Program-made: the position numbers and the translations under genes
Part shown: positions 1,240 through 23,018 of the stretch, one piece after another
Layout of the letters: each line of letters starts with the position of its first letter
How positions within the stretch are numbered: the first letter of the stretch is position 1
Notes under the pieces: generated by a model
The model's database searches: none
What the model was told of the DNA's origin: nothing
The model's input: the letters and a program-made list of their open reading frames with translations, nothing else
Virus record (IMG/VR): IMGVR_UViG_3300020430_000054
Coordinates: 1-33,831 of that record
Source of the DNA: a virus
Length of the DNA stretch: 33,831 nt
Direction: 5' to 3' (one strand)

Positions 1240-1247
1240 AATTTATT

Positions 1248-1350
1248 TCCTCCTTTATTATGCGGTTAACGTTAACCTGAATTTCCACGAAGTACAACCA
1301 GCCGCTTCGGTTGCACATCTTCAAGGGACAGCGGCCTCGTCCCAGGAGGA
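1248..1350 (-). promoter_or_regulatory. Structured 5' leader with complementary hairpin loops and anti-SD
   Basis: Read on the minus strand. (1) TCCTCCT at 1350-1344 is complementary over 7 bases to the SD AGGAGGA at 1254-1248. (2) Hairpin 1343-1325 has stem GGGAC/GTCCC and loop GAGGCCGCT. (3) Hairpin 1313-1295 has stem CAACC/GGTTG and loop GAAGCGGCT. (4) A perfect 14-base palindrome lies at 1277-1264. The two 9-base loops are complementary (GCCGCT with AGCGGC, plus one G-U), which allows a kissing interaction. The part from about 1290 to 1345 is clearly more GC-rich than the genes around it. The pairing is seen; a role as a translation switch for the gene starting at 1239 is inferred. Confidence 0.55.
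1264..1277. repeat. 14-bp perfect palindrome
   Basis: GGTTAACGTTAACC is identical to its reverse complement and contains a tandem GTTAAC. It lies 10 bases upstream of the AGGAGG of the gene starting at 1239. It could be a dimeric protein-binding site in DNA, or in RNA a weak hairpin or a self-pairing site. Confidence 0.8.
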
Positions 1351-1377
1351 TATTCAAAGTTATAATAATTAGATTCC

Positions 1378-1416
1378 AAAAAAGAGAAAACCCCCGCCAA
1401 ATTAATGACGGGGGTT
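1378..1416 (-). terminator. Rho-independent terminator after the major capsid gene
   Basis: The minus strand has a 10-bp stem (AACCCCCGTC with GGCGGGGGTT, one G-T pair), an 8-base AT loop, and then TTCTCTTTTTT. It lies about 33 bases after the capsid stop codon. No convincing promoter follows, so the decoration-like gene is probably reached by read-through, which would lower its transcript level compared with capsid. Confidence 0.85.
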
Positions 1417-1449: not shown

Positions 1450-3282
1450 TTAGCTAGCGCCTTCTTCACCAAGGAGACCACGTACGATAACGATACCATA
1501 CATATCTGGTCTAACCATCTTCTTGGCGTAACGGGTCATGACACCCTTACGAGGCACGAAGTCCTCTTGCCCGAAGATAGTAGGCGTTACCTGGAGCGGT
1601 ACATAAGGTGCATATACATAACCACTTTCTAGGAAAGAGTTACCTCTGCGACCTACAAGAACCACATTACGTGGGAAGTATGGATCAACCATAACATCAA
1701 ATTTCTTGCTCAATGAACCAACCTTAACGGCGCCGATGTCGCCACGGTCTGCGTCTGCCGTAACAGATGCACGGAAACCAGCGGTAAACTCAAGAATATT
1801 AGCAACCTCCGGAGAGCAAACAACAAAGTTTGCGCCGCCGCGAAGTGTCTTTCTGTGAATCTGAGCGCTTACGTCATTGATTGTCTCAATGAGAGTCTCA
1901 TACCACTCGCTAACAGTACCAGTGAAATCAGGAGCAGCCGAAGATGCACCCAGCTCAGCACCACTGCTGTCTACGAAAAGACCTGGAGCACGTGACCAGT
2001 AACGAGTACCAGCGGTAGCACCCTTTACAAGATCTCCAAGGATCTCACGGTCAATTTCGAGAGCAATCTGCTCTGAAAGGATACCAGTCAACTCAACCTC
2101 TGCGTCCAAGTTGTGATAGGCGTTAAGATCCTGACCGAGTTCAGGAGTCCATTTTGCCTTCAGTTTCTTGGTTACAGCGGTTACTGCAATACTGTCAACC
2201 TTAATGTCGATCTCTGGGATGACATCGTTAGTTGTAAGTGATGTTGCAGACGCTCCGTTACCTGCACCTTCAAGCAAAAATTCTGCGCCTTGCACAGCGC
2301 CAAGTGCATCAGCTGCCAAAATGGAGTCTGCCGCAGGGAAACTCAAGAATCCCTTATTTTCTGTGGCAGCTGCAACATTGGCGATAGTCATATCGGTATC
2401 ACCATGGTAGAATAGAGTAAGGATAGTATCCTTGTTTGTTACTGCAGTTCTGTCACCACTTGCTGGCAACTTACCACGTATTGTTAAGCGACGAATAATA
2501 CGCGTGTTAGTATCTAGCAATTCACCCACAGTACTGGTACCAGCACCCAAACGAACTGCATGTAGCTGTTCAGTATTGATCTTTAGCATGTCAGCTGCAT
2601 CAATCGTAACTTCCAAAGCACCAATCTTATCGGTAGATGGAGCGCCTAAAATATCAGGATCAAAGTTAAGTGCCTTCTTTTGTGCGTCTGTAAGGGCGCT
2701 AACTGCCACCTCAGTGCCGAGAATGTTTGTAGCTACCACAACTGCATGTTGAGTTTCATCAAGAGATCCTGATGGAGAACTTACTGCGTTGCCGAAATTG
2801 TAGAAACCACCAGGACCTGAACGTCCACCAGTCTCTGCGGCACCAGCGTTGGAAAGACCTTCAAGATTAACACCGCCAGTGATTTCGCTTGCAACACGGT
2901 TACCACCGTAAAGTGACCTAGTTCCTTCAGCGTCGAGTCTAGATGCGCTATGCACGAAATCCAAGAAGAAAATCAGTCCACTTGGAAGACTCATTGGTTG
3001 CACACTAACTAAATCGTTTGCGATAAGTCCACCGAATACACGACGAACAATCGGGAAAGCAACAGACGCGAAACCTTCGACGTCACCTGCTGCCATTGAG
3101 GATGCCTCACGAAGAAGCTCCTTTGCTTGGTTCTCAAGGAGAACCGCCATACCGTTTCGGTGCTGCTCTGAGGTGATACCTTCAAGGAGACCGGTCTTTT
3201 CCCACTTCTCTAAAAGTGCTTGACCTTCCTTAGAAACATCACGTCGAACAATACCTTCGGTTAATTTTTCTAATACAGACAT
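1450..3282 (-). CDS. gp23: Major capsid protein, T4 gp23-like
   Basis: A 610-residue protein, longer than the roughly 520 of T4 gp23. Residues 76-102 carry the gp23 hallmark (FPIVRRVFGGLIAND, then VSVQPMSLPSG). The middle is a long Gly/Ser/Thr/Ala-rich insertion typical of surface domains. The C-terminal half has the expected motifs around YPFPRN-type sequence (MVDPYFPRNVVLVGRRG). T4-type prohead protease cuts after L/I-x-E; LRE-A at residues 57-60 fits that rule and lies near the T4 gp23 cleavage position, so a propeptide of about 59 residues is likely. The start ATG at 3282 has AGGAGGT ten bases upstream. It follows the scaffold gene by 20 bases and ends at its own terminator, the usual order core, protease, scaffold, capsid. 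Confidence in the family is high. Confidence 0.96.
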   Translation of the reverse strand: MSVLEKLTEGIVRRDVSKEGQALLEKWEKTGLLEGITSEQHRNGMAVLLENQAKELLREASSMAAGDVEGFASVAFPIVRRVFGGLIANDLVSVQPMSLPSGLIFFLDFVHSASRLDAEGTRSLYGGNRVASEITGGVNLEGLSNAGAAETGGRSGPGGFYNFGNAVSSPSGSLDETQHAVVVATNILGTEVAVSALTDAQKKALNFDPDILGAPSTDKIGALEVTIDAADMLKINTEQLHAVRLGAGTSTVGELLDTNTRIIRRLTIRGKLPASGDRTAVTNKDTILTLFYHGDTDMTIANVAAATENKGFLSFPAADSILAADALGAVQGAEFLLEGAGNGASATSLTTNDVIPEIDIKVDSIAVTAVTKKLKAKWTPELGQDLNAYHNLDAEVELTGILSEQIALEIDREILGDLVKGATAGTRYWSRAPGLFVDSSGAELGASSAAPDFTGTVSEWYETLIETINDVSAQIHRKTLRGGANFVVCSPEVANILEFTAGFRASVTADADRGDIGAVKVGSLSKKFDVMVDPYFPRNVVLVGRRGNSFLESGYVYAPYVPLQVTPTIFGQEDFVPRKGVMTRYAKKMVRPDMYGIVIVRGLLGEEGAS

Positions 3283-4427: not shown

Positions 4428-4478
4428 TTACCCCTTATACAAAATAATGTTCAATAATAAATAGTAAATGTAATTCAT
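4428..4478 (-). CDS. Possible 16-residue hydrophobic leader peptide
   Basis: ATG at 4478 follows an AAGG by five bases and opens a 16-codon frame (MNYIYYLLLNIILYKG). Its TAA stop lies three bases before the scaffold ATG, and its last two sense codons (AAG GGG) form the scaffold SD. It reads like a membrane-inserting peptide or a coupling leader. The frame is short enough to be chance, so this is a candidate only. Confidence 0.25.
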   Translation of the reverse strand: MNYIYYLLLNIILYKG

Positions 4479-13952: not shown

Positions 13953-16900
13953 TTAGACGCTGATATGTGCAAACCCCTCTCTCTTGTCAATTGAGATCTG
14001 CATGTCCACTGCGTCTTTAAGAGTATCTAGATGTGAAATCAAAATAACTGTCCTAAAATAAGACTTGACCATGTCCATGATACGCACAAATCCCTCCATA
14101 TTATCCTCATCTAAAGCAGTGCCTGGTTCGTCAAGAATGAAAATATCAGGTTTAGGCAAACTAGAAACCGTCAAAAGAGCAAGTCGAATCGCCATAGAAG
14201 CGATTGTCTTTTCTGCTCCGGATCCCATCTCAAGTGGGCGAGGTTCAAACCTATGATGTTTAATAAAAATATCAAGCTTTTTGTCTTCATTTAAAATAAA
14301 AACCTCAAAGTCAACAACACCAGTTAAGATCTTGGCTATTTCTTCGTTAATTACTGGCAGTCTATTTTTAATAATATCATATGATATTCCATTTGGGTGA
14401 CAACACCTCATAAACAATTCATATGCTGCAAATTCTGATCTTAGTGATTCAAGCTCTGCTACGCTTTCTTTTAAGTTTTTAATTTTCTGCTCTGACGACC
14501 CAACATCTCTAAAAAGATTGTTTGTCTTTACCTTGCACGTATCACACTCCTTCTCTGCCTCTGCGACCTTTTTTACAAATTTGGCGCGTCGGTCGACCAA
14601 CTCCTCCAAGTTTTCAATCGCTTCTTTATTGTCCTCATATTGTTTAAGTTTTGAATCTAACTTTTCAAGAATTGTGCGATGCTTAAACAAGTCTCCTTCA
14701 TTTTTATCAATAGAAAGTTGCAAAGTGGCAATACTTTCTGACACTTCATTCTTCTTTTCTGTCAACTGATTGAACTTATCGACATACGAAAGTATTTTAT
14801 CCTGGTCGAAGGTAGACAATTCTTTACCCAAGTCGTTTATTTCTTTTGATAAATTTGACATTACCTTGTCTTTTGCTTCAACAACCGTCCCGATTACTTC
14901 AACACAGTCTTCGCAAAGCAAATCATTTTTCTCAACAAGGAGCGTTCTTTCCTCAGACGCCTTTTTCATTTCAGAAAGAAGAAATTCTAACCTACCCCTA
15001 TTCTCAACAATCTTGCTCTTCTTTTCTTCATACCCCCCAATATCAAACTCTGATAAAAATTTCGCGATCTTTTGAAATTTTGTTTTTGCCTCTTCCAGAT
15101 CTGTGGTATATGAAATTATATTGTTTTCGATGTTATTGATCTTGGAAAATATTGTCTCCTTTTCCATCTTCACTTTAATGGGGTCAATAATTTCAGTTGG
15201 AGCAGACTCTATCTTCTCCGTTAGATCATCTACAGTTTCTTGATTTTCAAGGATAATTTTTTCAAGATTCTTGCACTTTGCAACATTCTTTTTCAATTCA
15301 GAGTTTTTTAATTCCAAATCAGATATCGCCTCCTCTATCTGCTCTTTGAAATCTATACCCTCCAGACGCCGAAGAGCGCCCCTTATATCGGTACACTCCT
15401 CTTTTGCCATCTTAAACTTTCTATCAAAAATCTCTAAATCTAAAAACTTTGCTAGTATCTCTTTTCTTTTAGTCGATCCTTCGTTTATAAATGCTAAGGA
15501 GTCCAACTGTGATGCCATAGATGTCATCAAAAAATCATCTAGAGTGCCAAAGTATTTCCTTATGATCTTATCAGTATCTTGTCGAGATGTGCCATTTAAT
15601 ATCTCCTGATTTCCTATTAAATCTTCTGACAGAAACTCGACATCCGTCTTTGCCTCTTCTGTTTCTACTCCCTTTAGTTTTTTGACATACTTTTCTGATG
15701 TTCTGGTAATTTCAAAATTCTTATCTCCAACCTTGATTTTTGCCTTAGCAGAACCTAGATCAAGATTTTGGTTTATTATGTTTAAATTTTTTCTTACGGA
15801 CTTTGAAGTAGAATTATATATTGCATACAAAAGACTATCAATAACAGAAGACTTCCCTGAGAAGTTTTTACCGAAAATGCCGACAATGCCTTCTAGTTTT
15901 GAAAAATCAATCTTATTACCTTCGCCATAGTTAAACAACCCATCCCACTCTAACGACTGCATACTCCAATTAACATTTCGATATATCTCTTCAGATTCCT
16001 CAATTGCTTTATTTAACCTAGAGTTTAAGGAGAGAACTTTTTCCATAACCTGTTCTGAGACTTCATAATCTTTTAGATACCCTTCTATTAAGCGGTTTTG
16101 GATCTTTATATTTCTTAAATCCTCCTGCTCTACTGAAGGAGTATTAACATCCAATGCCTTGCTGGATGCCCTGTTTAAGTAAGTTATGCTTTCTGGTTTA
16201 TATTTAAACTTTGCAATATCGACGCTCTTTCTCATAACATCTAGAGAAATATTTGAATCAGATACCAACCTGACTCTTGAACCCGGAATCACGTCCACCT
16301 CTGGTAGTGTGCCATCCTTATTTAATTCAATTGTTACAAAGGGTTTGGGGTTGTCAAAGGTTATTAACTTATTAGTAAACTTGTTCTTACTCTTAATGTC
16401 CCAAAGCAAATAACCTTTATCCAAAGATTCGCCAAAGTTCTGCTGAACTGTTGAACCTGCATACCATATTCTCCCCTCTTTGTCTAACTTCTGCGTTTTG
16501 TGAATATCTCCAAGAAAAGCAAAGTCAAAGTTATCAAAGATGCCAATATCATGATCACCTCCTAAAGTCCAGTTCAGATCCGTTTTGGACCTGTCAATTG
16601 CACCATGATATAGTGCAATATTAATCATACGTTTATTACTAGGTTGAATCCAGTTTTCCTCATCAAACACAGACAACACGTTTAAGCAAAATTTATTATC
16701 AATCTTATGTTCTCCCGAGTTTTTGAGAAGAATAATATTGTCATTATCCAATGCTTTAATTATTGGAGTAATTGCATCCTGCCGACTAGCATTCTTCAAA
16801 TTGCCATCATGATTCCCAAGGATTATGTATGTTGGGGCGATTTTAGCAAGATTTTCAAAAAAATCCCTTGCCATATCAACAAACTCGGGAGATATCTGTG

Positions 16901-17048
16901 TTTTCGTATGGGCAATGTCACCGCAGTGTATTATGCAATCTACGCCCTCTTCCTTTAAAGAATCATATAATTGTTTAAAAACTTCCTTGTATTCATAGTG
17001 ATATTTTAAATTTCGAATGTGCGTATCCGCTATGTGTGCAAACTTCAT
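13953..17048 (-). CDS. Single-chain Mre11-Rad50 (SbcD-SbcC) recombination nuclease
   Basis: A 1031-residue fusion of two proteins that T4 makes separately as gp47 and gp46. The nuclease half (1 to about 330) carries the Mre11 phosphoesterase motifs HIADTH (5-10), GDIAH (43-47), GNHD (78-81), YHGAID (147-152) and GDIH (180-183). The ATPase half begins near 360: Walker A IFGKNFSGKSS (391-401), coiled coil about 540-870, zinc-hook CEDC (712-715) near the coil centre, signature MGSGAEK (941-947), Walker B FILDEPG (970-976) and His switch SHLD (1005-1008). All catalytic residues are present. The enzyme should resect double-strand ends to feed recombination-dependent replication. There is no stop or frame change between the halves; the joint is a helical stretch (about 330-360). 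Start ATG 17048 has GGAGGG upstream. Confidence 0.95.
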   Translation of the reverse strand: MKFAHIADTHIRNLKYHYEYKEVFKQLYDSLKEEGVDCIIHCGDIAHTKTQISPEFVDMARDFFENLAKIAPTYIILGNHDGNLKNASRQDAITPIIKALDNDNIILLKNSGEHKIDNKFCLNVLSVFDEENWIQPSNKRMINIALYHGAIDRSKTDLNWTLGGDHDIGIFDNFDFAFLGDIHKTQKLDKEGRIWYAGSTVQQNFGESLDKGYLLWDIKSKNKFTNKLITFDNPKPFVTIELNKDGTLPEVDVIPGSRVRLVSDSNISLDVMRKSVDIAKFKYKPESITYLNRASSKALDVNTPSVEQEDLRNIKIQNRLIEGYLKDYEVSEQVMEKVLSLNSRLNKAIEESEEIYRNVNWSMQSLEWDGLFNYGEGNKIDFSKLEGIVGIFGKNFSGKSSVIDSLLYAIYNSTSKSVRKNLNIINQNLDLGSAKAKIKVGDKNFEITRTSEKYVKKLKGVETEEAKTDVEFLSEDLIGNQEILNGTSRQDTDKIIRKYFGTLDDFLMTSMASQLDSLAFINEGSTKRKEILAKFLDLEIFDRKFKMAKEECTDIRGALRRLEGIDFKEQIEEAISDLELKNSELKKNVAKCKNLEKIILENQETVDDLTEKIESAPTEIIDPIKVKMEKETIFSKINNIENNIISYTTDLEEAKTKFQKIAKFLSEFDIGGYEEKKSKIVENRGRLEFLLSEMKKASEERTLLVEKNDLLCEDCVEVIGTVVEAKDKVMSNLSKEINDLGKELSTFDQDKILSYVDKFNQLTEKKNEVSESIATLQLSIDKNEGDLFKHRTILEKLDSKLKQYEDNKEAIENLEELVDRRAKFVKKVAEAEKECDTCKVKTNNLFRDVGSSEQKIKNLKESVAELESLRSEFAAYELFMRCCHPNGISYDIIKNRLPVINEEIAKILTGVVDFEVFILNEDKKLDIFIKHHRFEPRPLEMGSGAEKTIASMAIRLALLTVSSLPKPDIFILDEPGTALDEDNMEGFVRIMDMVKSYFRTVILISHLDTLKDAVDMQISIDKREGFAHISV

Positions 17049-22981: not shown

Positions 22982-23018
22982 GTACTATAACTCCTCAAAC
23001 TTCAATTGTAAATAGATT

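Follow-up and report, generated by a model that had tools for sequence, protein, structure and literature searches.

A conserved leader RNA with a predicted kissing-loop three-way junction precedes an exchangeable, presumed virion-protein gene in uncultured marine phages

Introduction

The Shine-Dalgarno (SD) sequence of the SMK-box (SAM-III) riboswitch pairs with an anti-SD sequence inside a junction, and the ligand stabilises this SD pairing. Among the genes of bacteriophage T4, soc is a virion-surface gene. The leaders of T4 soc, gene e, gene 49 and I-TevI sequester the SD or the AUG in an RNA helix, and the leader of gene 32 in T4 and RB69 contains a pseudoknot that serves as an autogenous translational operator (PMC3014915). 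The same review states that no riboswitch from T4 has been functionally characterised and suggests looking in T4-related phages (PMC3014915). The manA and wcaG motifs come from marine metagenomes and T4-like cyanophages (PMC2864571). Elaborately folded leader RNAs of phage structural genes are, by comparison, little known.

Here, we describe a leader RNA from a 33,831-base IMG/VR virus record, analysed over its whole length and referred to below as the window. PHROG matches to terminase, portal, head protease and major head protein families identify the source as a phage of the T4 superfamily. With the leaders of T4 e, soc, 49 and I-TevI, this marine RNA shares a place on a late mRNA of a T4-superfamily phage and a leader structure that may hide the SD; soc, as a virion-surface gene, resembles the presumed virion gene here. 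The T4 e/soc-type leaders are simple helices, whereas the marine RNA is a predicted three-way junction with kissing loops in which masking is a candidate function. Like the gene 32 leader, it is a tertiary-folded leader 5' of the SD in a T4-type phage, but that operator is an H-type pseudoknot with an A+U-rich site, is bound by a single-strand DNA-binding protein, and represents another fold before another gene. The purine (guanine, adenine and 2'-dG) riboswitches have the same P1-P2-P3 junction, a P2-P3 loop-loop contact and a P1 that takes part in the expression platform, and in the marine RNA the three-way junction with its loop contact is supported by covariation in P1, P2, P3 and the kissing helix. 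It differs from them in its 6-7 bp Watson-Crick kissing helix, its other junction bases, the lack of an Rfam match and the phage virion gene that it precedes. The manA and wcaG motifs are likewise structured leader RNAs of marine T4-like phages, but they lie 5' of metabolic, exopolysaccharide and light-induced genes, and their Rfam models do not match the marine RNA. The SMK box, finally, offers a parallel to the SD/anti-SD pairing proposed for the marine RNA, but there the pairing is stabilised by a ligand, and again the marine RNA gave no Rfam match. The marine RNA therefore resembles purine riboswitches in topology, the T4 soc and e leaders in possible logic, and manA and wcaG in genomic setting.

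Results

The major capsid (head) protein gene of the window, a T4-superfamily gene matching PHROG 138 (major head protein, E 3.5e-71), occupies positions 1450-3282 of the minus strand, on which all features given below also lie. Its nearest deposited relatives are distant and belong to an uncultured phage and to phages of Microcystis, Flavobacterium and Rhodothermus. Immediately downstream, at 1389-1416, a Rho-independent-type terminator can be read directly as AACCCCCGUC...GGCGGGGGUU followed by a U-rich run, and a terminator-like hairpin stands at the same spot after the capsid gene in most relatives. Elsewhere in the window, a 1031-residue open reading frame (13953-17048) matches PHROG profiles that are SbcD-like over residues 1-360 and SbcC-like over residues 148-1028, which suggests a fused recombination nuclease.

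The leader follows the terminator. A sequence-only reading of this DNA had named two hairpins with complementary loops between a TCCTCCT and the SD, and direct reading found each of these elements, to the base, where that reading had placed it. TCCTCCT lies at 1350-1344, the SD AGGAGGA at 1248-1254 and the start codon ATG at 1239-1237. The first hairpin, P2 (1325-1343), reads GGGAC-GAGGCCGCT-GTCCC with loop L2 GAGGCCGCU; across relatives 94.6% of its stem cells are paired, with two-sided changes at 4 of 5 pairs. The second, first noted as CAACC-GAAGCGGCT-GGTTG at 1313-1295, is the inner part of an 8-bp hairpin, P3 (1292-1316; stem 1316-1309 with 1299-1292, loop L3 GAAGCGGCU), in which 91% of cells are paired and 6 of 8 pairs show two-sided changes. 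L2 bases 1336-1330 (GGCCGCU) can pair with L3 bases 1306-1300 (AGCGGCU) in a kissing helix that spans 1300-1336 and has the six Watson-Crick pairs and one G-U originally claimed for it.

Besides the longer P3, the earlier reading had missed three elements: a closing stem P1, a palindromic hairpin P4 and a promoter-like CTAATTA. The 5' strand of P1, ACUUUGAAUAUCC (1348-1360), pairs with GGAAAUUCAGGUU at 1274-1286, and both P1 helices covary in relatives. Since P1 (1360-1348 with 1286-1274) is present, the two hairpins become arms of a three-way junction. CUCCU, the anti-SD core, occupies 1344-1348, that is, the last base of P1 and junction J1/2, and is invariant in the aligned relatives. P4 (1264-1277) is GGUUA-ACGU-UAACC in the window and GUUAU-UGCA-AUAAC, GUUAUCGAUAAC or GGUUACGUAACC in most relatives; it is missing from one subgroup. 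A possible weak, A/U-rich hairpin, P5 (CAUAAU/AUUAUG, 1237-1262), might, on weak evidence, present the SD in its loop; ATAAT 5' of the SD together with ATTATG at the start codon occurs in 33 of 51 leaders with the kissing RNA and in 4 of 99 other leaders. Taken together, the RNA is a P1-P2-P3 three-way junction closed by a 6-7 bp kissing helix and followed by P4, the SD and the ATG.

Taken alone, the pattern in the window is near chance level and no significance is claimed for it: neighbouring hairpins with at least six complementary loop bases arise 0.55 times per dinucleotide-shuffled 33.8-kb strand, and the fold of the window leader has a z of -1.8. Comparison lifts this doubt: the structure is retained, with extensive covariation, in 65 distinct homologues. 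When relatives of the capsid gene were sought blind to the RNA, 80 loci emerged, about one sixth of which have the same leader; further members came from a DNA pattern scan and from another capsid search. The alignment comprises 66 leaders (65 distinct), all from related marine phages that are uncultured. The covariance model of the leader, R1, reached E-values down to 1e-23. In each of 26 records, 4 to 195 kb long, it found a single copy; it found none in three further long records, whose capsid genes are related but whose leaders are of other types. The position is fixed: the leader comes next after the terminator of the major capsid gene and always precedes the same kind of gene.

The aligned order is as follows: CTATTTA; P1 (ACUUG...C with G...CAAGU); CUCCU at the P1/P2 junction; P2 of 4-5 bp with the loop G-R-G-G-C-S-N-C-U; a purine-rich J2/3; P3 of 6-8 bp with the loop G-R-...-G-C-U; J3/1; P1'; P4; SD; start codon. 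A subgroup with a GC-rich P1 has an enlarged L3 and is the one without P4. CUCCU is present in every aligned relative, including two (L237, L272) that were found without CUCCU in the query. Over the 65 distinct sequences, standard pairs fill 93.7% of cells, against 79.9% after shuffling and 34-50% after sliding, and two-sided changes, which affect 20 of the 32 pairs, number 262 cells, against 83 in shuffles.

Left out of the covariance model, the kissing helix is nevertheless fully complementary in each of the 65 sequences (100% of cells), with 44 compensatory two-sided cells at two positions: pair 4 is C-G in 49 sequences and G-C in 16, and pair 5 is A-U in 37, G-C in 21 and C-G in 7. Because part of the set had been gathered with a pattern that fixed some loop bases, we ran a prediction test, scanning a viral collection for a non-C at position 4 of loop 1 with no constraint on the four loop-2 positions opposite. 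All 21 loci returned carry the compensating C in loop 2, as well as the promoter motif, the fold, the SD and the basic start peptide. An analogous scan for a changed pair 3 returned ten unrelated sequences and zero family members, and pair 3 is therefore taken as invariant. Complementarity in every sequence, compensation at two positions and the successful prediction strongly support the kissing-loop fold. The single long stem proposed as an alternative state of the loops is disfavoured, since each of the stems P2 and P3 shows covariation of its own. On the minus (sense) strand, G-U pairs far outnumber A-C mismatches, as expected of an element acting as sense-strand RNA, and the compensatory changes together with this bias reject a purely DNA-level role. 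On this comparative evidence the structured RNA family is almost certainly real.

No known family accounts for it. The comparison with Rfam that had been proposed gave zero matches for the window at the gathering thresholds of Rfam 15, and permissive scans (a window segment at E up to 5, five relatives at E up to 1) gave sub-threshold matches only, none of them to the kissing fold. Within these limits the purine riboswitch model matched neither window nor relatives, and the manA and wcaG models matched neither the window nor the five relatives. Neither leader nor cargo had a homologue among deposited phages, searched with the DNA of two leaders and with the 270-residue protein encoded behind the window leader; a few short and weak DNA matches to the leader were judged chance. 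One strict pattern did not occur in bacterial and archaeal genomes, and the open-licence papers searched contained no description of a kissing-hairpin leader. The leader RNA is a previously uncatalogued family.

The promoter-like CTAATTA lies at 1366-1372, just 5' of the RNA, and reads CTATTTA in most relatives. Within the window alone CTANTTA occurs at chance frequency; among post-capsid leaders of any type it stands before 112 of 118, usually with 5-6 nt separating it from the RNA's first ACTT. From this placement, CTAATTA is probably the late promoter of the leader, and CTATTTA is a candidate late promoter different from that of T4, TATAAATA. CTATTTA also stands 5' of two other minus-strand genes of the window, at 4458-4464 and 23009-23015.

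The sequence-only reading had further proposed that TCCTCCT pairs with the SD as a translation switch. The invariance of CUCCU and an extended SD match speak for this proposal. The SD behind the RNA is GGAGRA in 62 of 65 leaders, compared with 54 of 154 other GGAG-type SDs of the same contigs, and its duplex with the anti-SD has a mean energy of -9.8 kcal/mol, against -8.0 kcal/mol for other same-contig SDs, being lower in 51 of 59 contigs. The compensatory change sought between TCCTCCT and AGGAGGA did not appear pair by pair (permutation 53/300): of the 5 leaders with a C in the anti-SD, 3 have a G in the SD, compared with 6 of the 60 others, but the sequences concerned are related, and both cores are invariant. 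Predicted SD accessibility is not lower than in unrelated leaders at the same site. In energies that ignore the kissing helix, junction and anti-SD states differ by a mean of 0.0 kcal/mol, and the leader of the window divides into 51% P1 and 49% anti-SD; by the same energies, the GC-rich-P1 subgroup (L071, L090, L167, L193, L204 and others) favours the junction by 2.4 to 19 kcal/mol. As CUCCU is invariant even there, it may serve the junction itself. We do not accept the anti-SD as a proven switch, given accessibility equal to that of control leaders and a subgroup that disfavours the anti-SD state.

The gene behind the leader (427-1239) encodes 270 residues comprising a basic tag, MGNRRIGRKR, a linker and a predicted ConA-like lectin beta-sandwich, and is presumed to specify a virion protein. 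Its predicted model (mean pLDDT 63, moderate confidence) resembles ConA-like lectins and glucanases and has a disordered N-terminal part. The protein matches no Pfam or PHROG family, and the other cargo proteins mostly lack matches as well, with two weak PHROG matches only. In all 51 cases, the gene that follows the RNA starts with a tag of the form M-G/A-x-R-(R/L/I), and MG[NS]RR was absent behind the other leaders examined. The leader and this short MGNRRLG-like tag are constant and the protein bodies vary: after about residue 20 the cargoes fall into at least seven unrelated groups. The suggestion that the leader senses a free capsid protein is without support, given that it stands before at least seven bodies unrelated to one another. 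Conversely, relatives of the window cargo that match residues 95-270 only (L004-L007) lack the RNA. The RNA is scattered over the capsid tree with 14 changes, at least 10 of them forced by supported branches; since the RNA needs at least 10 to 14 changes on that tree, the leader-tag cassette moves between lineages.

Over 118 loci the post-capsid gene is a swap site at which constant leader-tag types are joined to many unrelated protein bodies. Some chimeras (L009, L179, L237) begin with MGNRRxG and continue with an MGTKR-type tag. Small genes for low-complexity, Lys/Ala/Glu/Pro-rich proteins occur at 236-442 of the window and in L037, L056, L066, L212 and L267, and in several relatives such a gene replaces the cargo directly after the capsid gene.

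Discussion

Comparison of relatives establishes the fold of the RNA, its conservation, its one fixed location and its link to the basic tag. We propose that a late-type promoter immediately downstream of the capsid gene drives transcription of the RNA at 1360-1264, which would form the 5' end of the mRNA for a swappable virion-protein gene. The RNA very probably acts in cis on the gene behind it. Transcription control is less likely because no terminator-like element lies between RNA and gene, and any cis effect would most likely fall on translation initiation. With P1 and the kissing junction intact the SD would be free; were P1 to open, CUCCU and neighbouring bases could pair with the SD and close it, the balance being tipped by a candidate protein, ligand, ion, temperature or order of folding. 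Such control of initiation by SD switching is plausible on sequence grounds, if slightly short of an even chance. The whole account, a late-mRNA leader family acting in cis with the switching step included, is the best explanation we can offer and on balance a probable one. A bolder version, in which the RNA is a sensor (riboswitch-like, or one that the tag peptide binds) and toggles the late virion gene between a kissing junction with the SD open and a state with the SD shut, the leader-tag cassette conferring the same control on any swapped-in head protein, is speculative and unlikely.

The main rival to an SD switch is a stabilising role at the 5' end of the mRNA, where the compact fold would block 5'-end-dependent decay and raise the yield of an abundant virion protein without switching. 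This we consider somewhat unlikely. It agrees with the unreduced SD accessibility, with a fold that begins a few bases after the promoter-like motif, and with the hairpins that start other leader types at the same site (z of the first 45 nt -1.3 and -1.7 in two types); a simple hairpin would nevertheless suffice for it, leaving the kissing helix, the invariant CUCCU and the conserved loop and junction bases unexplained. Autogenous repression, in which the basic N-terminal tag of the free protein would bind the RNA and shut off its own translation, has a precedent in T4 gene 32 and its leader pseudoknot (PMC3014915). The Arg/Lys-rich tag of about 10 residues is the sole protein part common to all cargoes, accompanies the RNA without exception and, as MG[NS]RR, never occurs without it. 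Other leader types also precede basic tags (MGTKRVGLAR, MSKLGRYSADRKK), however, which makes a signal for binding to the head another candidate role of the tag, and such an operator seems quite improbable.

A ligand- or ion-sensing riboswitch would account for the strong conservation of junction and loop bases and for an architecture in which, as in the guanine riboswitches (PMC5480868), P2 and P3 loops meet in a three-way junction and P1 shares bases with the expression platform; the analogy meets no Rfam riboswitch model and a gene for a virion protein, neither metabolic nor transport, which makes it very unlikely. That the segment is kept purely as an anchor for cargo swapping by homologous exchange, as its scatter over the capsid tree and the chimeric N-termini of L009, L179 and L237 might suggest, is extremely improbable and largely refuted by covariation, since exchange needs sequence identity, and these sequences diverge yet remain paired by means of compensatory changes and G-U pairs; swapping may come as an additional effect.

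The leader family joins a constant RNA and protein tag to a variable cargo, an unusual pairing. With comparative proof at the level of base pairs, correctly predicted kissing variants, a fixed genomic place and many natural variants, the RNA makes a question testable: do marine phages use a leader RNA to set how much of an exchangeable virion protein, lectin-like or other, is made?

Elsewhere in the group, different leader types with different tags occupy the same place, and several of these leaders start with a hairpin. Seven loci (L023, L033, L059, L083, L243, L249 and L257) carry, just after the capsid gene, a different, apparently structured leader of the form CCTAGTTAT..GGGTAG..CTACCCCCTAGTAT..GGGACATGATTATAAA..GGAGGG. 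It precedes genes with MGTKRVGLAR-type tags, shows several hairpins by eye, and may be another new RNA family.
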